A DNA stretch of 64,000 bases from Arthrobacter sp. SLBN-112 (GTDB lineage Bacteria; Actinomycetota; Actinomycetes; Actinomycetales; Micrococcaceae), in assembly GCF_006715225.1 (NCBI RefSeq), contig NZ_VFMU01000001.1, positions 3,100,001 through 3,164,000 of the forward strand, read 5' to 3'. The position numbers were made by a program, and so were the translations under genes. This document shows positions 12,817 to 23,140 of the stretch, one piece after another; position 1 is the first letter of the stretch, and each line of letters begins with the position of its first letter. The notes under the pieces were generated by a model. That model was not told where the DNA came from and searched no databases. It worked only from the letters and a program-made list of their open reading frames with translations.

Positions 12817-15800
12817 ATGGCACCGCGAAGTTTTCTTCAATGGCCGGTCGTCCGTCAACTGACCACGGGCGACCTACTGGGGCGCGGGCCATCTGTCACC
12901 TCGCCCCGCACGCAGGCAATAGCTCCACGGACGGCCACCGCGGACCGCGTGGTGCAAAGTGTGTGCCCCTACTGTGCTGTTGGATGCGGGCAGCGGGTTT
13001 ACGTCAAAGACGAAAAAGTTGTCCAGATCGAGGGAGATCCGGATTCACCCATTTCCCGCGGTCGGCTCTGCCCCAAGGGCTCTGCCAGCGAGCAGTTGGT
13101 GAACTCGCCCGGCCGGCAGACCCGGGTGCTCTACCGTGCACCGCGCTCCAGTGAGTGGGAATATCTGGACCTGGCTACGGCAGTTGAGATGGTGGCGGAC
13201 CGCTTCATCGAAACCCGGCGCAGGACGTGGCAGCAGGAAGATGACCAAGGCAGGCTTCTGCGCCGCACCATGGGCATAGCCTCGCTGGGCGGGGCCACCC
13301 TGGACAACGAAGAAAACTACCTGATCAAGAAACTCTTCACAGCTGCAGGGGCGGTGCAGACCGAGAACCAGGCCCGCATATGACACTCCGCCACGGTTCC
13401 CAGTTTGGGAGCCTCGTTTGGACGCGGTGGTGCAACGCAATCACTGCAGGACATGGCTAACGCTGACTGCATCATCATTCAGGGTTCCAACATGGCCGAG
13501 TGCCACCCGGTGGGGTACCAGTGGGTGGCGGAAGCGAAGGCCCGTGGTGCGAAGGTTATCCACATTGATCCGCGGTTCACGCGCACGTCGGCGGTTTCGG
13601 ATAAGCACATTCCCATCCGTGCAGGTTCTGATGTTGTGCTCCTGGGCGCCCTGATTAACTACGTCATCACCAACGACCTCTGGTTCAAGGAGTACGTCGG
13701 CGCGTACACCAACGCAGCCACACTGGTTCACGAGGACTACCGTGATGCCGAGGACCTGGGCGGCCTCTTCTCCGGCTTCGATCCCGAGAAGCGGGCGTAC
13801 GACACGTCGTCGTGGTCTTATGCAGAACAAGGGGAGGGAAGTATTGACGATCCCGGGCCCGGCTCGGAACACGGCGAGGATGCCACGGCCCGTGCTGCCG
13901 GCCATGCCTACGGCAGCGGCGGCCCGCCCTTGGAGCATGCCGAAGTGCAGCGTGACGATACCCTGCAGGACCCCCGGACGGTCTTCCAGATCGTAAAGCG
14001 GCACTACGCCCGCTACACCGCGGAGATGGTCAGGGACATGTGCGGTATCGACGTCGCTGACTTCGAGTACCTGGCCCGTGCCATTACGGAAAACTCAGGA
14101 CGCGACCGGACCACCTGTTTCGCCTATGCTGTCGGCTGGACCCAGCACTCCCTGGGAGCCCAGTTCATCAGGGCCGCAGCCATCCTGCAGCTTCTGCTGG
14201 GAAACATGGGACGCCCGGGCGGCGGAATCATGGCCCTGCGCGGCCATGCCAGTATCCAGGGTTCCACCGACATCCCCACCCTGTTCAACCTGCTGCCCGG
14301 ATACCTGCCGATGCCCAGTGCCGGCCGCCATGACAGCCTTGGCGAATACCTGGAAGCGGTGGGGTCGAAACAGCAGAAGGGCTACTGGGCTGATGCCGAC
14401 GCCTACACAATCAGCCTGCTCAAGGCCTGGTGGGGCGACGCCGCCAACGAGGACAACGATTGGGCCTACGACTACCTGCCCAGGCTCACCGGTGCCCACG
14501 GTACCTACGAGACGGTCATGGGCATGCTCGAGGACGAAGTGGAGGGCTACTTCCTGCTCGGGCAGAACCCTGCTGTGGGCTCTGCCCACGGCCGCATGCA
14601 ACGGCTGGGCATGTCGCATTTGAAGTGGCTCGTGGTGCGCGACCTGAATCTCATTGAGTCGGCAACCTGGTGGAAGGACGGCCCGGAAATCGAATCCGGC
14701 GAGCTGCGCACCGAGGACATCGAGACTGAGGTGTTCTTCCTGCCCGCAGCAACCCATGTGGAGAAAGCCGGCTCGTTCACGCAAACCCAGCGGCTGCTGC
14801 AGTGGCGGCACCAGGCGGTGGCACCGCCGGGGGAGTGCCAAAGCGAACTGCAGTTCTTCTTTGAGCTGGGCCAACGGATCCGGGAGAAGCTGGCCGATTC
14901 ACAGGACGAGCGCGACCGTCCGCTGCTGGACCTGACCTGGGACTATCCCGTGGACGAACATGGAGATCCGGACGCCGAGGCGGTGCTTGCCGAAATCAAC
15001 GGCCGTCACTTGGCGGGCCCGGAGGCCGGAAAACCCCTCTCCGCATACACCGAACTCCGCGCCGACGGTTCCACGTCGGCCGGCTGCTGGATCTACACCG
15101 GGGTATACGCCGACGGCTTCAACCACGCCGCAAACCGCAAGCCGGGCCAGGAACAGGGGCCCGCGGCGTCGGAATGGGGCTGGGCATGGCCGGCCAACCG
15201 CAGGATCCTCTACAACCGGGCGTCGGCCGACCCCGCGGGTAAACCCTGGAGCGAACGGAAGAAGTACATCTGGTGGGACCAGGAGCAGGGTAAATGGATC
15301 GGGGACGACGTGCCCGACTTCCCGGTGGACCGGGCACCAGGCAGCCACCCGGACCCCTCCGTTGGTGGGGCAGCCGCCCTGAGCGGTGATGATCCCTTCA
15401 TCATGCAGGCGGACGGCAAGGGCTGGCTGTTCGCGCCGAAGGGACTCATGGACGGGCCCCTTCCCACCCACTACGAGGCTCAGGAATCGCCAGTGGCCAA
15501 CGCGCTCTACCCGCAACAGCAGAGCCCGGCGCGGCTGGTGTTCCCCCGCACTGATAACCTCAGTGCGCCAAGCGCCGGCACCCCCGGTGCAGACGTGTAC
15601 CCGTACGTCTTCACCACCTACCGCCTCACCGAGCACCATACGGCGGGCGGGATGAGCCGCTGGCTGCCGTATCTGTCGGAGCTGCAACCGGAGATGTTCT
15701 GCGAGGTCTCGCCCGAACTGGCCGCTGAGCGCGGACTTGAGCCCTATGGGTGGGCCACCATCATTTCACCCCGCTCCGCCATCGAGGCGAAGGTGCTTGT

Positions 15801-16131
15801 CACCGACCGGATGAGGCCCCTGGCCGTCGGCGGGCATACCGTGCATCAGATCGGGCTGCCTTACCACTGGGGTGTCGGCAGCAATGCCGTGGTCAGCGGT
15901 GACGCGGCCAACGATCTGCTGGGTGTGACGCTGGATCCCAACGTCCAGATCCAGGAATCCAAGGTGGCCTCCTGCGACATCCGGCCGGGCCGCCGGCCCC
16001 GCGGAAGGGAGCTGCTTGCCTTGGTTGCCGAGTACCAGACGCGCGCCGGACTGACCACCGAGACCGGTAACCGGGCCGTCACCGACCAGCCCGGCAGTGT
16101 TCCGGGTACCGAACCGACGTTGGAGGACTAG
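12817..16131 (+). CDS. fdhA: Formate dehydrogenase catalytic subunit, selenocysteine-containing
   Basis: A 1104-aa molybdopterin oxidoreductase oxidising formate to CO2. Residues 50, 53, 57 and 85 (CPYCAVGC...RLCPKG) bind the N-terminal [4Fe-4S] cluster. Codon 189 (13381-13383) is an in-frame TGA in the context ARI-U-HSATVPSLG...FGRG, matching my memory of the E. coli FdnG active-site segment (U-H-x-x-T-V-x-S-L). It should be selenocysteine, the molybdenum or tungsten ligand. A SECIS-like hairpin starts 11 bases downstream. selA, selB, selD and the selenocysteine tRNA are nearby. Unlike FdnG it has no twin-arginine signal, so it probably faces the cytoplasm. Standard gene callers would split it into 12817-13383 and 13405-16131. 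The start ATG is preceded by TATGCT and no ribosome-binding site. Confidence 0.95.
13381..13413 (+). promoter_or_regulatory. Selenocysteine UGA codon and SECIS-like hairpin
   Basis: TGA at 13381-13383 is followed by 11 bases and then a hairpin at 13395-13413: GGTTCCCA pairs with TGGGAGCC (one G-U pair) around a GTT apex. The 11-base spacing and the GGTT start are the same as I recall for the E. coli fdhF element. A G-U in the apical loop is what SelB contacts in that system. Pairing is read directly; SelB binding is inferred. Confidence 0.85.
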
Positions 16132-17139
16132 ATGGGCCAGTTGTCCGGACCGACCGACCCTACCGCCGATGCCCATTGGGAGCACAACCACCCGCGCAAG
16201 GGGTTTTTCACCGACACCTCAATCTGCATTGGCTGCAAGGCCTGTGAGGTTGCCTGCAAGGAGTGGAACCACAACCCGCAGGACGGCAACCTGGAACTGC
16301 TCGGGTCCTCCTATGACAACACCGGCTCCCTGGGGGCCAGCACCTGGCGGCATGTGGCGTTCATTGAACAGGGCCAGGAACGCATCGAGGAGGCGCGGGA
16401 ATCAGGACGGGCCCTGGTCAGCCTTGGCATGCCGCGCATCGGTCCGCCCCAGGCGGCGCCTGCTGGGACCGATTTGGCGGGCGCGGACACCACACCCCCG
16501 GACACGGCAGACTTCCGGTGGCTGATGTCCTCTGATGTCTGCAAGCATTGCACGCACGCCGGATGCCTGGACGTCTGCCCCACCGGAGCGCTGTTCCGCA
16601 CCGAATTCGGCACCGTGGTGGTCCAGGACGATGTCTGCAACGGCTGCGGAACCTGCGTGGCCGGGTGCCCCTTCGGCGTGATCGAGCGTCGCAGTAACGG
16701 CACGGTCAAGGTCGCCGCCAGCAGGGAGGAACAGCACGCCAAGCATCCCACGGTGCCGAACGAGGGCATCGCCCAGAAGTGCACGCTGTGCTACGACCGG
16801 CTGGTGGCAGACGAGACGCCTGCCTGCGCCAAGGCATGCCCGACGACGTCCATCAAGTTTGGCGATCACGACGACATGGTGGACACGGCCCGGGAACGCG
16901 TCGCCGCGCTGCATGCGCAGGGCATGACCGAAGCGAGGCTTTACGGCGCGAACGAGAACGACGGGGTCGGCGGAACCGGATCAGTCTTCCTGCTGCTGGA
17001 CGAACCCGAAGTCTATGGACTGCCGCCGGACCCGCGGGTGCCCACCGCGGATCTGCCCCGGATGTACCGCCGGGCCGGCATGGCAGTAGCGGGCATGGCC
17101 GCGGCAGCTGCCCTGGCTTTCCTGGGAGGACGTGCGTGA
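16132..17139 (+). CDS. fdhB: Formate dehydrogenase iron-sulfur subunit
   Basis: A 335-aa electron-transfer subunit with four ferredoxin-type [4Fe-4S] motifs. The first is Cys32/35/38/42 (CIGCKACEVAC). The others are in CKHCTHAGCLDVCP, CNGCGTCVAGCP and CTLCYDRL...CAKACP. It carries electrons from the catalytic subunit toward the membrane. The C-terminus ends in an Ala/Gly-rich hydrophobic helix (about residues 310-333) that can anchor it. The ATG at 16132 directly follows the fdhA stop codon, and the fdhC start overlaps its stop (GTGA), so the three genes form a tightly coupled operon. It resembles the E. coli FdnH family. Confidence 0.95.
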   Translation: MGQLSGPTDPTADAHWEHNHPRKGFFTDTSICIGCKACEVACKEWNHNPQDGNLELLGSSYDNTGSLGASTWRHVAFIEQGQERIEEARESGRALVSLGMPRIGPPQAAPAGTDLAGADTTPPDTADFRWLMSSDVCKHCTHAGCLDVCPTGALFRTEFGTVVVQDDVCNGCGTCVAGCPFGVIERRSNGTVKVAASREEQHAKHPTVPNEGIAQKCTLCYDRLVADETPACAKACPTTSIKFGDHDDMVDTARERVAALHAQGMTEARLYGANENDGVGGTGSVFLLLDEPEVYGLPPDPRVPTADLPRMYRRAGMAVAGMAAAAALAFLGGRA

Positions 17140-18227
17140 CCCTCTCAGAGTTCGACAGCTTCCGGCCATCCGAGCCTGCCCGCCGCGGCCGGCAGGGCGT
17201 CAAGCGCGGCACGGGCCGGCGACGGGACAACAGTGACGGCTCCCGGGAAATGCCCATGGTGCCGGAGCCGGACTTCACCTCGTACTACGGCCGTCCGGTG
17301 GTCAAGCCGGCGCCATGGGGCGATGACGTCGCCATCTACCTGTTCCTGGGCGGCGTTGCAGCCGGGTCAGCCCTGCTAGGCCTCGGCGGTCAACTGACCG
17401 GACGGCCAATCCTCTGCCGCAATGCCAGGCTAAGCGCGCTGACGGCGGTGAGCGCCGGCGCCGTTGCTTTGGTGAAGGACCTGGGCAGGCCGGAGCGTTT
17501 CCTGCACATGTTGCGGACCTTCAAGGTGACCTCGCCCATGAGTGTGGGCTCGTGGATTCTCAGCGCCTTCAGCGCCGGCACTGCCGTCACTGCCGTGGCG
17601 GAAATCGACCGGCTCAGCGGAACGCGGCTTCCGTTGGGTTTGTTGCGAAAAGTGCTGCAGGCTGTTGAGGGACCGGCCGGGTTTGAAGCTGCCGTGTTCG
17701 CGGGGCCGTTGGCGGCCTACACCGCGGTCCTGCTTGGCGATACCGCCACACCCACATGGAACGCCGCCCACGAAGAACTGCCTTTTGTCTTCGTGAGTTC
17801 GGCCTGCCTCGCGTCTGCCGGGCTCGCCATGGTCACCACACCCGTACGGGAGACCGGGCCTGCACGCAAACTCGCCGTGCTGGGCGTCCTGGGTGACGTC
17901 GCTGCCATGAAGGTGATGGAACGCCGGATGGATCCGATAGCAGCCGAGCCCCTTCACCAGGGCAAGGCGGGCGTCATGCTGAAGTGGAGCGAGCGGTTGG
18001 CGGTGGCCGGTGGCTTGGGGACTCTGCTGGGCGGACGTAACCGTGTGGTGGCCGCGGCTTCGGGACTGGCGCTGCTTTCCGCGTCGGCCCTGACCCGCTT
18101 CGGGGTATTCGAAGCGGGGCTGGCCTCTGCCAGGGATCCCCGCTACACGATAGAACCGCAAAAGAACCGGCTTGCGGCCCGCCGTGCCGCGGGCGTTACC
18201 GGCGACGCGATCACTACTGCCGGCTGA
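17136..18227 (+). CDS. NrfD/PsrC-type membrane subunit of formate dehydrogenase
   Basis: A 363-aa polytopic membrane protein. After a charged N-terminal tail of about 60 residues come roughly eight hydrophobic helices, beginning DVAIYLFLGGVAAGSALLGL. The motif LGRPERFLHMLRTFK followed by SPMSVGSWIL is typical of NrfD-like quinone-reacting subunits. These proteins lack haem and exchange electrons with menaquinone. The GTG start overlaps the fdhB stop and has GGGAGGA upstream. With the iron-sulfur subunit it would connect formate oxidation to the respiratory chain. Haem-binding FdnI-type histidines are not expected in this family. Confidence 0.9.
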   Translation: MTLSEFDSFRPSEPARRGRQGVKRGTGRRRDNSDGSREMPMVPEPDFTSYYGRPVVKPAPWGDDVAIYLFLGGVAAGSALLGLGGQLTGRPILCRNARLSALTAVSAGAVALVKDLGRPERFLHMLRTFKVTSPMSVGSWILSAFSAGTAVTAVAEIDRLSGTRLPLGLLRKVLQAVEGPAGFEAAVFAGPLAAYTAVLLGDTATPTWNAAHEELPFVFVSSACLASAGLAMVTTPVRETGPARKLAVLGVLGDVAAMKVMERRMDPIAAEPLHQGKAGVMLKWSERLAVAGGLGTLLGGRNRVVAAASGLALLSASALTRFGVFEAGLASARDPRYTIEPQKNRLAARRAAGVTGDAITTAG

Positions 18228-18242
18228 GCGCGTTGCCCGGCT

Positions 18243-19253
18243 TCAGCGGACCTGGATGCCCTGGCCCGCGGTGGTGTGGCCAATCACGGGGTGACCCGGC
18301 AGCTCACCGACCACCAGCAGGCCGCCGGAGGTCTGGGCATCGGCCAGTACCAGCAGATCGTCCTCGGTGACGCCGGGACCGGCCTCCAAGTGCGGCCGCA
18401 CCCAATCGAGATTGCGCCGGGTCCCACCGGAGACGAAGCCATCCCGCAGCGCCTCACGCGCTCCTTCGATCAGCGGTACCGCTGATCGGTCAATCACGGC
18501 GCCCACTTCCGAGGCACGGACCATCTTGTACAGGTGTCCAAGCAGGCCAAAACCCGTCACGTCTGTCGCTGCCCGGACCCCGGCGGCCACCGCGGCCTCG
18601 GCTGCGTCGCGGTTCAACGCCGCCATCGTCTCGACGGCTTCGGCGAACACCTCGCCGGTCTGCTTGTGCCGGTTGTTGAGAAGCCCGACGCCGAGTGGTT
18701 TGGTCAGCGTGATCGGCATCCCGGGCTGGGCGGCATCATTGCGAAGCAGGCGGTCGGGGTGGGCGACCCCGGTTACGGCCATTCCGTACTTTGGCTCCGG
18801 ATCGTCGATGGAGTGCCCGCCGAGCACCGGACACCCTGCTTCTGATGCGACGCTCAGGCCGCCCCGGAGTACCTCCGTCATCAACTCCAGCGGCAGGACT
18901 CCGCGGGGCCAGCCAACCAGGTTGATCGCGGTGACCGGCCGGCCGCCCATCGCGTAAATGTCCGAGAGGGCATTGGCGGCAGCGATGCGGCCCCAGTCAA
19001 ACGCATCGTTGACAACGGGAGTGAAGAAATCGGCGGTGGTAAGGACCGCAAGGTCATCGCGGACCAGGACCGCCGCCGCGTCGTCACCGCTGTCAAGGCC
19101 AACCAGGACCTCCGCGCCCTGTTGGCCGATCAGCCCCCGCACCGCATCTTCGAGCTCGCCGGGCGGAATTTTGCAGGCACAGCCCCCGCCGTGGGCGTAT
19201 TCGGTGAGCCGGAGCGTTCCGACGGCGGCATGATCGAGTTGCTGAACTGACAT
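18243..19253 (-). CDS. selD: Selenide, water dikinase (selenophosphate synthetase)
   Basis: A 336-aa enzyme making selenophosphate from selenide and ATP, the selenium donor for selenocysteine synthesis. The catalytic region is GGGCACKI: Cys25, Cys27 and Lys28 (cysteine form, not selenocysteine). ATP-binding motifs include DDAAAV, TTADFFTP, LGGHSIDDPEPKYG and the glycine-rich SGG near the C-terminus. ATG at 19253 with GAGG upstream is preferred to a GTG at 19268. It is convergent with the formate dehydrogenase operon (15 bases between stop codons) and divergent from the selC-selA-selB set, so it is transcribed on its own. Confidence 0.97.
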   Translation of the reverse strand: MSVQQLDHAAVGTLRLTEYAHGGGCACKIPPGELEDAVRGLIGQQGAEVLVGLDSGDDAAAVLVRDDLAVLTTADFFTPVVNDAFDWGRIAAANALSDIYAMGGRPVTAINLVGWPRGVLPLELMTEVLRGGLSVASEAGCPVLGGHSIDDPEPKYGMAVTGVAHPDRLLRNDAAQPGMPITLTKPLGVGLLNNRHKQTGEVFAEAVETMAALNRDAAEAAVAAGVRAATDVTGFGLLGHLYKMVRASEVGAVIDRSAVPLIEGAREALRDGFVSGGTRRNLDWVRPHLEAGPGVTEDDLLVLADAQTSGGLLVVGELPGHPVIGHTTAGQGIQVR

Positions 19254-19298
19254 CTGAGCCTCATTCACCCGCCCAGCCTACCCCGCAGGACAACCTGC

Positions 19299-19304
19299 TA
19301 TATT
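19299..19304 (+). promoter_or_regulatory. -10 element of the selC-selA-selB transcript
   Basis: TATATT ends 7 bases before the first base of the tRNA, the spacing expected for a transcript that begins at or just before the mature 5' end. No clear -35 element is visible. Confidence 0.5.
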
Positions 19305-19311
19305 GAGGCGC

Positions 19312-19406
19312 GGTGGCGTCCGGGTCCTGGTGGGCCCCCCGGTCTTCAAAACCGGTGCGGCTGAGCATCTCGGCCTGGCGGGTTCGATTCCCGTCCGCCA
19401 CCGCCA
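19312..19406 (+). tRNA. selC: Selenocysteine tRNA (anticodon TCA)
   Basis: A 95-base tRNA with encoded CCA and discriminator G. The D stem is 6 bp (GGGTCC/GGGCCC). The anticodon arm is CCGGT-CTTCAAA-ACCGG with TCA at 19346-19348. The long variable arm is 7 bp (GGCTGAG-CAT-CTCGGCC), and the T arm is GCGGG-TTCGATT-CCCGT. The acceptor stem is 8 positions long, giving the 8+5 helix that SelB requires, but its last position is a T-C mismatch (19319 with 19395). The UCA anticodon, 6-bp D stem and long variable arm together identify the selenocysteine tRNA. selA starts about 25 bases downstream. Confidence 0.97.
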
Positions 19407-19430
19407 ACTTTCGGCAGTGAATGCCGCGAC

Positions 19431-20774
19431 ATGAGGAGGGCTGTGGACCAGGTCGATCCCCGGCGCCTGATTCCCCGCACGAACGACCTGCTGGCACTGC
19501 CGGCCGTTCACGAGGCCCGGACAAGGCTGCACGAGCGCGTCATCCGCGAACTGGTCCGGCAAGTCCAGGAGCAGGCCCGGTGCGGCGATCTCCCTCCGGG
19601 CGATGTGGAACCAGCCCTGCTCGCCGCTCTGGGTTCACGAACCGCAACGACCCTGCGCCCGGTGCTCAACGCCACCGGCGTCATCGTCCACACGAACCTG
19701 GGGCGTGCGCCCCTTTCGACAGCCGCGGTGGAGGCCCTTCTGACGGCCAGCGGCTACGTCGACGTGGAGCTGGACCTGGCAGACGGCAGCCGCTCCCGAC
19801 GCGGCGCGGGCGCCCGGGCTGCATTGCTCGCCGCCTGTCCCGCCGCCGAGGACGCCCTGGTGGTCAACAATGGAGCTGCGGCGCTGGTGTTGGCCACCAC
19901 AGCCCTGGCCGCCGACCGGGAAGTAGTGGTGAGTCGGGGCGAACTCGTCGAGATCGGTGCAGGCTTTCGGTTGACCGATTTGATGGAGTCGACCGGTGCC
20001 AGGCTGCACGAAGTGGGCACCACCAACCGAACGCACCTGCATGACTACGCCGGCGCCCTCGGGCCGGACACCGGTTGCGTCCTGAAGGTCCACCCCAGCA
20101 ACTTCCGAGTGGACGGATTCACGTCCGCTGTTCCGCTCGACGAACTGAGCCGGCTGACGGTGGCGCACGGCGTACCACTCGTGGCCGACCTGGGCAGCGG
20201 GCTGCTGGCCCCCGACCCGTACCTGCCCGATGAACCCGATGCTGCCACCGCTTTGGCAAGCGGGGCCGACGTCGTCATAGCCAGTGGTGACAAACTGCTG
20301 GGCGGCCCCCAAGCGGGCCTGTTGCTTGGCCGCAAGGAGATCATCACCCGCCTGGCCCGCCACCCGCTCGCCCGTGCGGTCCGTGCCGACAAACTTGCCC
20401 TCGCCGCCCTGGAAGCGACCCTCGCGGGGCCAGCGGCGCCGGTTGTCCAGGCCCTGCACGCCGACGTCGAACAGTTGCGCCAACGTACGGAGCGGCTCGC
20501 CCAGGCCCTGGGTGTAGCCGTTGTGGCCCATGACGGCAGGGTAGGGGGCGGCGGCGCCCCCGGAGTTCCCCTGCCGGGATGGGCCCTCCGGCTCCCTGAG
20601 AATATCGCAGGCCACCTGCGCACAGGCAACCCGGCCGTCCTGCCTCGGGTCAATGACGGTTCCTGCCTGATCGACCTGCGCTGCGTGCCGGCAGCGGACG
20701 ACGACAGGATTCTCAATGCGGTACGGCAGGCATTGGCAACCCGCGAGGGCGCCGATGCAGGCAGGGCAGGCTGA
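19431..20774 (+). CDS. selA: L-seryl-tRNA(Sec) selenium transferase
   Basis: A 447-aa PLP enzyme converting seryl-tRNA(Sec) to selenocysteyl-tRNA(Sec) using selenophosphate. The PLP lysine is Lys288 in ASGDKLLGGPQAG. Other conserved blocks are HTNLGRAPLS, VVNNGAAAL, SRGELVEIG, EVGTTNRTH and VADLGSGL, and they align closely with E. coli SelA. The ATG at 19431 lacks a ribosome-binding site. A GTG four codons later (19443) has GAGG upstream and may be the real start. It follows the tRNA and runs into selB, with 3 bases between stop and start. Confidence 0.97.
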   Translation: MRRAVDQVDPRRLIPRTNDLLALPAVHEARTRLHERVIRELVRQVQEQARCGDLPPGDVEPALLAALGSRTATTLRPVLNATGVIVHTNLGRAPLSTAAVEALLTASGYVDVELDLADGSRSRRGAGARAALLAACPAAEDALVVNNGAAALVLATTALAADREVVVSRGELVEIGAGFRLTDLMESTGARLHEVGTTNRTHLHDYAGALGPDTGCVLKVHPSNFRVDGFTSAVPLDELSRLTVAHGVPLVADLGSGLLAPDPYLPDEPDAATALASGADVVIASGDKLLGGPQAGLLLGRKEIITRLARHPLARAVRADKLALAALEATLAGPAAPVVQALHADVEQLRQRTERLAQALGVAVVAHDGRVGGGGAPGVPLPGWALRLPENIAGHLRTGNPAVLPRVNDGSCLIDLRCVPAADDDRILNAVRQALATREGADAGRAG

Positions 20775-20777
20775 TCA

Positions 20778-22580
20778 GTGCACGTCGTTGCCACCTCCGG
20801 ACATGTCGATTCCGGTAAAAGCACCCTGGTTCGCGCGCTCACCGGCATGGAGCCGGACCGTTGGGAGGAAGAACGGCGCCGCGGGCTGACCATTGACCTG
20901 GGCTATGCCTGGACAACCCTCCCGTCCGGACAAGATGTTGCGTTCGTTGATGTACCGGGCCACGAACGGTTCCTCGGCAACATGCTTGCAGGAATCGGGC
21001 CGGCGCCGGTGGTCTGCTTCGTCGTAGCCGCGGATGAGGGCTGGCAGGCGCAGTCAAGCGATCACCGGGACGCCGTCGCTGCGCTCGGCATCGAACACGG
21101 CGTCGTGGTCCTCAGCCGCGCGGACCGGGCATCCCGGGAGCGGGTTGCAGACGTACTCGCCCGGACCCGCAGTGAGTTGGCCGGAACCGGTTTGAAGGAC
21201 GCGCCCGCCGTAGCTGTGTCGGCCATCGACGGAACAGGCCTTGCTGACCTGCGGACAGCGCTCGACGACGTCCTGTCCCAGGTGCCGGCCCCCGCCACCA
21301 CCGGGCGGGTCAGGTTGTGGGTGGACCGCTCGTTCACCATCACCGGTTCCGGAACGGTGGTGACCGGAACACTGGCAGCAGGCGCACTCGCCCAGGGCGA
21401 CCGGCTTCAGCTGCTGGGCCACGCCGGTTCCCGCACCGTCACAGTCCGCGGCCTGCAAAGCCGGGACACCTCCTACGCCTCAGTGGAGCCTGTCAGCAGG
21501 GTTGCGTTGAACGTGCGCGACGTTGCCCCAACGGATATCCGCCGCGGGGATGCGCTGGTGACTCCCGATGCGTGGCCCGCCACCGGCGTGGTCGGCATCC
21601 AGCGGATCACCGGCGTCGCCTATATGGACGTGCCGGAACAACTCATGGTGCATGTTGGCACTGCCTCCGTGCCTGCCCGGCTGCGACCGTTCGGAACCGA
21701 TCATGCCCGGCTCGTCCTGGACAGGCCCCTGCCGCTTGTTCTCGGAGACCGGATGGTGCTGCGTGACCCCGGAAGCCGCTCCGTGCTGGGCGGCGCACGC
21801 GTCCTCGATGCCGACCCTCCGGCCTTGGAGCGGCGCGGCGATGGCGCCCGCTGGGCGGAACGGCTTGCAGGCATGGACCCCGCCGGAGATCTACTGGGAG
21901 AAGTAGCAGCCCGCGGAGCCGTCCAGGTGCAGCATCTGCGCAGGCTCGGGCTGCTGCCCGGGCAGGACGCGGACGCGGATGCGCCGTCGGGCGTACGGAC
22001 ATTGGGCGATTGGTGGGTGCATGCCCCCGTCCTCGAGGCATGGCAGGATCGGCTGCGCAATGCGGTCCAGGCGCTGCAGGAGCGCGATCCCTTGGCGCCC
22101 GGCCTTTCCATGGGCGCGGCGCGGGACCTGCTGAGGCTGCCCGACGAGAGGCTTCTGCCCCACGTCATCCATGGGGCAGCCCTTGATCAGGACAGCGGCC
22201 ACATCCGGCTGCCAGGCAGCCAAGGCAACCTCGGCCCCGTGGAGCCCGCCATCGCCGAGTTGGAGCGCAGGCTCGGCGCAAACGCGTTCCATGCCCCGGA
22301 AGCCGATGAGCTGGCTGCACTGGGCCTCGGTGCCCGGGAACTCGCCGCCGCCGAACGCACGGGGCGTTTGCTGCGGCTGCGCGACGGCGTGGTGTTGCTG
22401 CCTACGGCGCCGGCCCTGGCCATGCGCACCCTGGCGCGCCTGGACCAGCCCTTCACCACAAGCGAGGCACGCCAGGCACTCGACACAACACGCCGGATCG
22501 CCGTTCCGCTGCTGGAACATCTCGATTCCCGGGGCTGGACCCGGCGGCTCGATGCCGGTCACCGCTCGGTGGTGCGCTGA
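20778..22580 (+). CDS. selB: Selenocysteine-specific translation elongation factor
   Basis: A 600-aa GTPase that delivers selenocysteyl-tRNA to UGA codons marked by a SECIS hairpin. G1 is GHVDSGKST (residues 8-16) and G3 is DVPGHE. The sequence continues through EF-Tu-like domains II and III (RLWVDRSFTITGSGTVVTGTL) and ends in the winged-helix repeats that bind the mRNA hairpin. The N-terminus and length match the SelB family. The GTG start at 20778 is separated from the selA stop by 3 bases, so the two are probably translationally coupled. A strong inverted repeat follows the stop codon. Confidence 0.97.
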   Translation: MHVVATSGHVDSGKSTLVRALTGMEPDRWEEERRRGLTIDLGYAWTTLPSGQDVAFVDVPGHERFLGNMLAGIGPAPVVCFVVAADEGWQAQSSDHRDAVAALGIEHGVVVLSRADRASRERVADVLARTRSELAGTGLKDAPAVAVSAIDGTGLADLRTALDDVLSQVPAPATTGRVRLWVDRSFTITGSGTVVTGTLAAGALAQGDRLQLLGHAGSRTVTVRGLQSRDTSYASVEPVSRVALNVRDVAPTDIRRGDALVTPDAWPATGVVGIQRITGVAYMDVPEQLMVHVGTASVPARLRPFGTDHARLVLDRPLPLVLGDRMVLRDPGSRSVLGGARVLDADPPALERRGDGARWAERLAGMDPAGDLLGEVAARGAVQVQHLRRLGLLPGQDADADAPSGVRTLGDWWVHAPVLEAWQDRLRNAVQALQERDPLAPGLSMGAARDLLRLPDERLLPHVIHGAALDQDSGHIRLPGSQGNLGPVEPAIAELERRLGANAFHAPEADELAALGLGARELAAAERTGRLLRLRDGVVLLPTAPALAMRTLARLDQPFTTSEARQALDTTRRIAVPLLEHLDSRGWTRRLDAGHRSVVR

Positions 22581-22607: not shown

Positions 22608-22639
22608 GCCGGCCCGGCGGGAGACTACGCCGGGCCGGC
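22608..22639. terminator. Strong bidirectional terminator hairpin after selB
   Basis: Perfect 12-base arms GCCGGCCCGGCG (22608-22619) and CGCCGGGCCGGC (22628-22639) with an 8-base loop. It overlaps the last codons of the convergent kinase gene and can serve both genes. Confidence 0.75.
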
Positions 22640-23140
22640 CCTGTGGACACGGCTTAGGATGTCGTCCACAACGCGCGGGAGCGGCGCCGTGGCGTCGATC
22701 GTAATGCCACCGGGTGGGATTTCTTCCCGTGTTTGATGCAGGCGCTCGATCAACTCCCGTTCCTCTTGGCGTCTTCCCCATTCATCCTCCGGGCGCCCGT
22801 CAAGCCGTTGATGCAGCGTGGCGAGGTCCACCTCAAGAACGAATACCGCGTCAAACAGGCGAATGAACTTCGAGAGGTTTCTGGAGCCGCCACAGAAGAA
22901 CGTCAGCGCCTCCCGTTGGTCCGCGATCAGGGCCTTCACCTTGTCCACCCGCCAGATGTGGTGGTGGTGCACGGAGACGCCTGTAATGCCGGCCAACGGT
23001 TCACCGGTTTCCGGATCGCCTTGATAGGCCAGTTCGCGGTCACCATTGATGGCCTGATAGCCCCGCCGCCGCAATTCGTTGCAGACCGCGGTCTTGCCGG
23101 TTCCGGAGCCACCCTCGATGAGGTAGTTCTTTCTGCCCAT
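22625..23140 (-). CDS. Small P-loop nucleotide kinase-like protein
   Basis: A 171-aa ATPase of the AAA_18/adenylate-kinase-like fold. The Walker A motif GGSGTGKT is at residues 10-17, and DAVFVLEVD near residue 95 is a Walker-B-like strand. A His-rich stretch HHHHIW precedes it. The substrate is not evident; such proteins phosphorylate nucleosides, gluconate or other small molecules. The ATG at 23140 lacks a ribosome-binding site, but TACCAT lies 5 bases upstream, so the message may be leaderless. It converges with selB, which is probably incidental. Confidence 0.82.
   Translation of the reverse strand: MGRKNYLIEGGSGTGKTAVCNELRRRGYQAINGDRELAYQGDPETGEPLAGITGVSVHHHHIWRVDKVKALIADQREALTFFCGGSRNLSKFIRLFDAVFVLEVDLATLHQRLDGRPEDEWGRRQEERELIERLHQTREEIPPGGITIDATAPLPRVVDDILSRVHRAGPA

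Follow-up and report, generated by a model that had tools for sequence, protein, structure and literature searches.

A predicted selenoprotein formate dehydrogenase clustered with a complete set of selenocysteine genes in Arthrobacter sp. SLBN-112

The use of selenocysteine (Sec) in Actinobacteria and in FdhA has been surveyed by earlier work (PMC1794560). In Corynebacterium aurimucosum, the relevant part of a 2010 paper describes one cluster that comprises fdnG (with an opal UGA), fdxH, selD, selA, selB, and selC (PMC2830990). Actinomycetospora chiangmaiensis, according to the portion of the paper devoted to its formate dehydrogenases, accumulates formate without added selenite and hardly does so with it, and its FdhA1, SelA, and SelB were found by proteomics at low abundance; FDH3, which is a Sec enzyme of the cytoplasm, may contribute to formate removal or account for the selenium effect (PMC7176365). 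Because such clusters have been published, a selenoprotein formate dehydrogenase cluster is already of a known kind, and the finding presented here is correct but known: it adds one more to the described actinobacterial selenoenzyme clusters. Its use lies in correct annotation and in its being a compact UGA-recoding cassette.

The window, that is, the whole stretch of DNA that was analysed, comprises 64,000 nucleotides of the genome of Arthrobacter sp. SLBN-112, an actinobacterium of soil type, and all coordinates refer to it. The features of the locus are the following:

12817 to 16131, + strand: fdhA, formate dehydrogenase alpha subunit, predicted selenoprotein of 1104 residues with Sec189 (NF041513, domains, PDB relatives)
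13381 to 13383, + strand: in-frame UGA, putative Sec codon (conserved in homologues; opposite X (Sec) or Cys in solved enzymes)
13395 to 13413, + strand: candidate bacterial SECIS hairpin, 8-bp stem and GUU loop (covariation, synonymous constraint, own-genome search)
16132 to 17139, + strand: fdhB, iron-sulfur subunit whose C-terminal part contains a segment judged hydrophobic by eye (Fer4 domains)
17136 to 18227, + strand: nrfD-like membrane anchor subunit (PF03916, 69.8 bits, cut-off 25.8, on the open reading frame 16779-18227)
18243 to 19268, - strand: selD, selenide, water dikinase (TIGR00476, 388 bits, cut-off 125)
19312 to 19406, + strand: selC, tRNA-Sec with anticodon UCA and encoded CCA (RF01852, 73.5 bits; ARAGORN)
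19431 to 20774, + strand: selA, L-seryl-tRNA(Sec) selenium transferase (TIGR00474, 416.8 bits, cut-off 267.9)
20778 to 22580, + strand: selB, Sec-specific elongation factor with a SelB winged-helix domain (TIGR00475, 276.7 bits, cut-off 242.25; PF09107)

The GTG start of the nrfD-like gene is a probable one, placed by analogy with a plasmid homologue (see below). The best NCBIfam match of FdhB, TIGR01582, reaches 164.1 bits against a cut-off of 334.7, so that FdhB does not qualify as an FDH-N beta subunit.

The fdhA frame contains a single TGA, at codon 189, and is open elsewhere. That it runs on past this codon with molybdopterin-oxidoreductase sequence, as originally predicted, is borne out by its length and by profile matches to molybdopterin and Fe4S4 domains. 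FdhA belongs to the NCBI family NF041513 (formate_DH_Act), which it matches over residues 6-1075 with 1966 bits (cut-off 1400), and it also lies above the cut-off of TIGR01553 (FDH-N alpha; 927.3 versus 814.2 bits). Its relatives in the PDB include 1kqf, 1h0h, and 8cm4, and X or Cys faces codon 189 in the three solved relatives for which alignments are shown (1kqf, 1h0h, and 9qm0). The original prediction had put the UGA where E. coli FdnG has Sec, and the 1kqf alignment places it there; the accompanying claim that the flanking residues match those of FdnG does not hold exactly (FdnG has NQARV-U-HGPTVASL), the residues around Sec in 1h0h (ARI-X-HSATVAAL) and 9qm0 (ARI-C-HSPTVPAL) being closer to the window FdhA. 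Nor is it general that annotation splits such a gene or calls it a pseudogene, as had been expected: the plasmid homologue is annotated as a single 3333-bp CDS, 'fdh', to which one protein accession is assigned, in a table that does not show joins.

The strongest support for the Sec reading, which the original prediction had overlooked, is the presence of selD, the tRNA-Sec gene, selA, and selB within 6.5 kb downstream. The genome thus holds selA, selB, selC, and selD, all of them downstream of fdhA. SelD itself has Cys, not Sec, in GGGCACKI, which we take to be its active-site stretch. Of 82 sources compared (80 loci plus the window and the plasmid), 54 share the order fdhA-fdhB-nrfD-selD(-)-selC-selA-selB, the window and the plasmid being two of these. 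Another 16 carry the sel block on the opposite flank of fdhA, and the remaining 12 have a partial cluster, five of them with sel genes on that opposite flank. The gene fdhD, which such formate dehydrogenases need, scores 153 bits (cut-off 140.9) at a site elsewhere in the genome. The observation of the UGA at 13381 is confirmed as real, and its original interpretation is supported: the codon, its position, the hairpin distance, and the protein family all hold, and a complete sel set follows directly downstream. The internal UGA of FdhA is almost certainly read as selenocysteine.

A homologue scan of genome contigs matched at least 593 stretches, and the best 80, all from other assemblies, were kept. 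Among these best 80, which span Arthrobacter, Paenarthrobacter, Sinomonas, Kocuria, Mycobacterium, and others, the Sec codon is TGA without exception, although Cys forms are less likely to show in this set because it consists of the nearest homologues. Six relatives, namely four stop-less copies from the family (L147-L150) and two from a phylum search (L134 and L135), have TGC instead; such Cys-type homologues are about 65% identical. The codon is hence a conserved UGA at a Sec/Cys site, as in UGA-Sec selenoproteins. In a sample of 149 family genomes, a formate dehydrogenase match is present in 43, and in 41 of these the matched stretch contains an in-frame TGA; one genome (G104) has the stop-less form only, and another (G125) has, at the threshold used, the C-terminal part only. 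Three genomes of this sample (G018, G084, and G121) carry both a Sec form and a Cys form. Some distant matches contain, besides TGA, a TAG (G287, G353, G374, G200, and G384) or a TAA (G223, G338, G252, G273, G489, and G201), which could be due to overrun of the match, decay, or other recoding.

The hairpin that follows the UGA has the sequence GGUUCCCA GUU UGGGAGCC. Its apex is GUU, as claimed in the original prediction, and the claimed spacing is likewise that of E. coli fdhF: 11 nt (13384-13394) separate the UGA from the hairpin, and 11 nt separate TGA from GGTT in fdhF. Folding, which had been proposed as a check, gives an ordinary energy (z of -1.4 to -1.9, with 10 to 15 of 200 shuffles equally good) and is unconvincing as proof by itself; the hairpin is upheld by sequence comparison, on which the case rests because the energy is unremarkable. 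In 37 distinct actinobacterial sequences, picked for diversity from 100 Sec-type sequences, 98.3% of 296 stem cells are paired, both sides have changed in a compensatory manner in three of the eight pairs, and the covariation score was reached by none of 500 shuffles. The outermost pair is broken in five of the 37, and pairing falls to 62-70% when the 3' partners are shifted by one column. Synonymous variation averages 0.18 at codons +5 to +11, which cover most of the stem, versus 0.39 at 245 other codons. When 255 stretches of seven codons are ranked, the seven with the least variation all start between -1 and +5 and overlap the hairpin. Covariation and synonymous constraint thus both place a hairpin directly after the UGA.

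The original prediction had regarded homologues with Cys and no hairpin at this codon as evidence against it. Cys homologues do exist, in the six TGC relatives, and in the four of them that were compared the stem is broken, with 68.8% of 32 cells paired and 10 of 32 unpaired; the one family genome with only the TGC form is outside the set of genomes with tRNA-Sec. Slid versions of these four sequences pair at 38-53%, below the unslid value, so the pairing that is left may owe something to a remnant of the stem or to the protein sequence held in common. Among the Cys relatives that were folded, L134 forms a strong hairpin of another kind (z of -3.65, with none of 200 shuffles as good), and the other three have no stand-out energy. 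The alignment to the Rfam family SECIS_3 (RF01989) begins one codon ahead of the UGA and takes in the hairpin; it scores 29.9 bits (E 0.0014), whereas the gathering score of the family is 63, and at the gathering threshold the only Rfam match was tRNA-Sec. The hairpin lies outside SECIS_3 and yet appears to work like a SECIS.

A model, R1, built from the 37 sequences was used to search the genome itself, with 150 of 4431 first-look candidates scored. Among those scored, the hairpin at 13395-13413 had an E value of 1e-12 and the next match one of 1.06, which was taken as chance and rejected as a further SECIS-like site.

Two other readings of the UGA can be set against these data. Read conventionally, the frame ends at the TGA, and an internal stop of this sort usually marks a pseudogene; the TGA could stem from faulty sequencing or from a nonsense mutation that arose recently in an enzyme of the Cys or Trp type. 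However, TGA stands at this codon in all 80 of the best of at least 593 homologues, which come from other assemblies; moreover, the hairpin is conserved, the sel genes are present, and the frame is otherwise open over 1104 codons. The conserved TGA refutes this reading, to which we attach practically no probability. Alternatively, a near-cognate tRNA (Trp or Cys) might read the UGA while the sel genes serve another protein, for which there would be room in that hairpins unlike the model would escape a search that scored 150 of 4431 candidates. Against this, the fdhA hairpin is the only site below E 1 among those scored, the relatives without Sec have TGC together with a broken stem in the four compared, and solved structures have Sec or Cys at this position. 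On these grounds, near-cognate read-through was rejected as highly improbable, and decoding as Sec is retained.

The distribution of the tRNA is in keeping with that of the enzyme in the family. tRNA-Sec occurs in 40 of the 149 genomes, and every one of these has a formate dehydrogenase match, with TGA seen in 39, the fortieth being the genome with the C-terminal part only at the threshold used. Conversely, 39 of the 41 genomes with a TGA-bearing gene have tRNA-Sec; in the other two, G021 and G148, the contig extends 0.1 and 1.4 kb, respectively, beyond the 3' end of the gene. In a sample of 396 genomes from the phylum, this link is looser: 259 have a tRNA-Sec that scores above the cut-off, and a formate dehydrogenase match at E 1e-100 is present in 122.

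The tRNA-Sec pairing and a plasmid copy are more interesting than the gene cluster itself. The plasmid, pYA7-1a of Arthrobacter sp. YA7-1, is typed as conjugative and covers 100% of 12817-22580 at 82.9% identity (L270, NZ_CP110115.1 29536-39409). It keeps the tRNA-Sec and the UGA with the hairpin sequence, and an integrase gene and a Tn3-family transposase lie near the cassette. Another plasmid record, from Tsukamurella, matches the cassette over 19% of its length. A search of the open-licence literature for a conjugative plasmid with selB gave no match, from which no absence in print is claimed; one study, in its pertinent part, lists two Arthrobacter strains as having received the Sec trait by transfer (PMC5029168). 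Within the genus, selB is present in 12 of 31 genomes and the downstream neighbour gene (22625-23140) in 11 of 31. Apart from the window genome, six have this neighbour and selB on one contig (G543, G544, G550, G552, G558, and G567), within 0.4 kb of each other in five and 6.6 kb apart in G543. As the two are close together in five other genomes, the junction is common to several species. Four genomes (G546, G553, G563, and G568) have the neighbour gene without selB.

Bacterial tRNA-Sec is given, in the relevant passages of one paper, as 8/5 (acceptor stem/T stem), with 7/5 exceptions of 12 bp (PMC5330540), and in those of another as 8/5, where SelB is said to depend chiefly on the 8-bp acceptor stem (PMC7609411); no 7/6 form was seen in these parts of the two papers. 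In the window tRNA-Sec, the acceptor stem pairs over 7 bp (19312-19318 with 19396-19402) and the T stem over 6 bp (19377-19382 with 19390-19395), with U8 at 19319. It therefore departs from the textbook 8/5, whereas the same script gives 8 + 5 for E. coli selC; the distance from the T loop to the discriminator is 13 nt in both. A search of the open-licence literature for a 6-bp T stem in tRNA-Sec gave no match, and absence in print is again not claimed.

The pairing was compared in 158 distinct tRNA-Sec sequences, E. coli included, of which 148 have the regular 13-nt branch; because the sample consists of the best-scoring matches plus relatives of the window, the class frequencies are rough. 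The 7/6 pairing is found in 107 of the 148 (107 of 147 actinobacterial ones) and the 8/5 pairing in 20, one of them E. coli. In the 21 others (L170, L192, L202, L236, and others), the acceptor stem has no eighth pair and the T stem no sixth, nucleotide 8 being G facing G or A in 19. Ten sequences are irregular: two are like that of the window with one acceptor mismatch, and eight fall outside the 13-nt register and have perhaps 12 bp. The 7/6 form occurs in 21 of 41 families sampled, three f18 sequences labelled 7/6 being irregular and not counted.

These classes reflect pairing potential, as read from the sequences, and the facing base alone (C or U versus G or A) decides between them. One proposal is that many Actinomycetota have kept the 13-bp branch and moved its hinge from 8/5 to 7/6, leaving nucleotide 8 unpaired, in which case SelB, SelA, and SerRS would read the 13-bp stack plus the long D stem and not an 8-bp acceptor stem; we give this an even chance. 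It is also possible, if rather doubtful, that the 7 + 6 is only apparent and that these are normal 8 + 5 molecules in which the eighth pair of the acceptor stem is a mismatch. Every one of the 148 regular sequences, also those of the 8 + 5 class, has G just ahead of the T stem, so that this G is no proof of pairing, and the 21 sequences with neither pair indicate that the branch tolerates a mismatch there. In the 107 sequences, however, the facing base is C or U, which can pair with this G, and nucleotide 8 is U, A, or C, never a standard partner of that facing base. Were the 7/6 tRNA-Sec to work, the SelB rule on an 8-bp acceptor stem would become a rule on a 13-bp branch.

We hold with very high confidence that the locus is a self-contained selenoprotein cassette in which FdhA with Sec189 would be read via the sel set and the hairpin and would pass electrons from formate to quinone. 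The codon, the covariation and synonymous constraint of the hairpin, the complete sel set, and the broken stem of the Cys relatives compared are direct observations; the chemical steps, selenium insertion, membrane attachment, and cytoplasmic orientation follow what is known of the families concerned. SelD would supply selenophosphate, with which SelA would convert Ser-tRNA(Sec) to Sec-tRNA(Sec), and SelB would bind both Sec-tRNA(Sec) and the hairpin 11 nt past the UGA, so that, in this proposal, ribosomes would insert Sec and not stop. Sec189 would then be a ligand of the Mo/W-bis-MGD centre, and FdhA, together with FdhB and the NrfD-like membrane subunit, would oxidise formate and send the electrons through these two subunits towards quinone. 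A twin-arginine-like sequence pattern occurs in 6 of 81 N termini; since the window FdhA is without it, the active site probably faces the cytoplasm.

Comparison with known systems shows both likenesses and differences. E. coli FDH-N (FdnG, 1kqf) has Sec at the same place, and E. coli FdhF shares the spacing between UGA and hairpin. The active site of FDH-N does not face the cytoplasm and its gamma subunit is FdnI, a cytochrome b, whereas the partner in the window is NrfD-like and does not qualify as the FDH-N cytochrome b gamma subunit. Given this partner and the lack of a twin-arginine pattern, a better name than FDH-N is actinobacterial FdnG-like formate dehydrogenase. Overall similarity to FdhA is about equal for FdnG (682 bits), 1h0h (678 bits), and 8cm4/9qm0 (658-663 bits); 1h0h and 8cm4/9qm0 are formate dehydrogenases of sulfate reducers and have partner subunits that differ from those of the window. 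The C. aurimucosum cluster, in a different genus and likened here through its published description, similarly brings together a UGA-bearing formate dehydrogenase gene and sel genes including selC, as the relevant passages relate (PMC2830990). FDH1 of A. chiangmaiensis is described, in the part of the paper concerned, as membrane-bound, with a 1078-residue FdhA predicted to contain Sec and with SelA and SelB in its cluster; SelD is listed there apart from that cluster, whereas selD of the window lies inside it, and three Sec formate dehydrogenase systems are described there, compared with one SECIS match below E 1 among the 150 of 4431 candidates scored here (PMC7176365).
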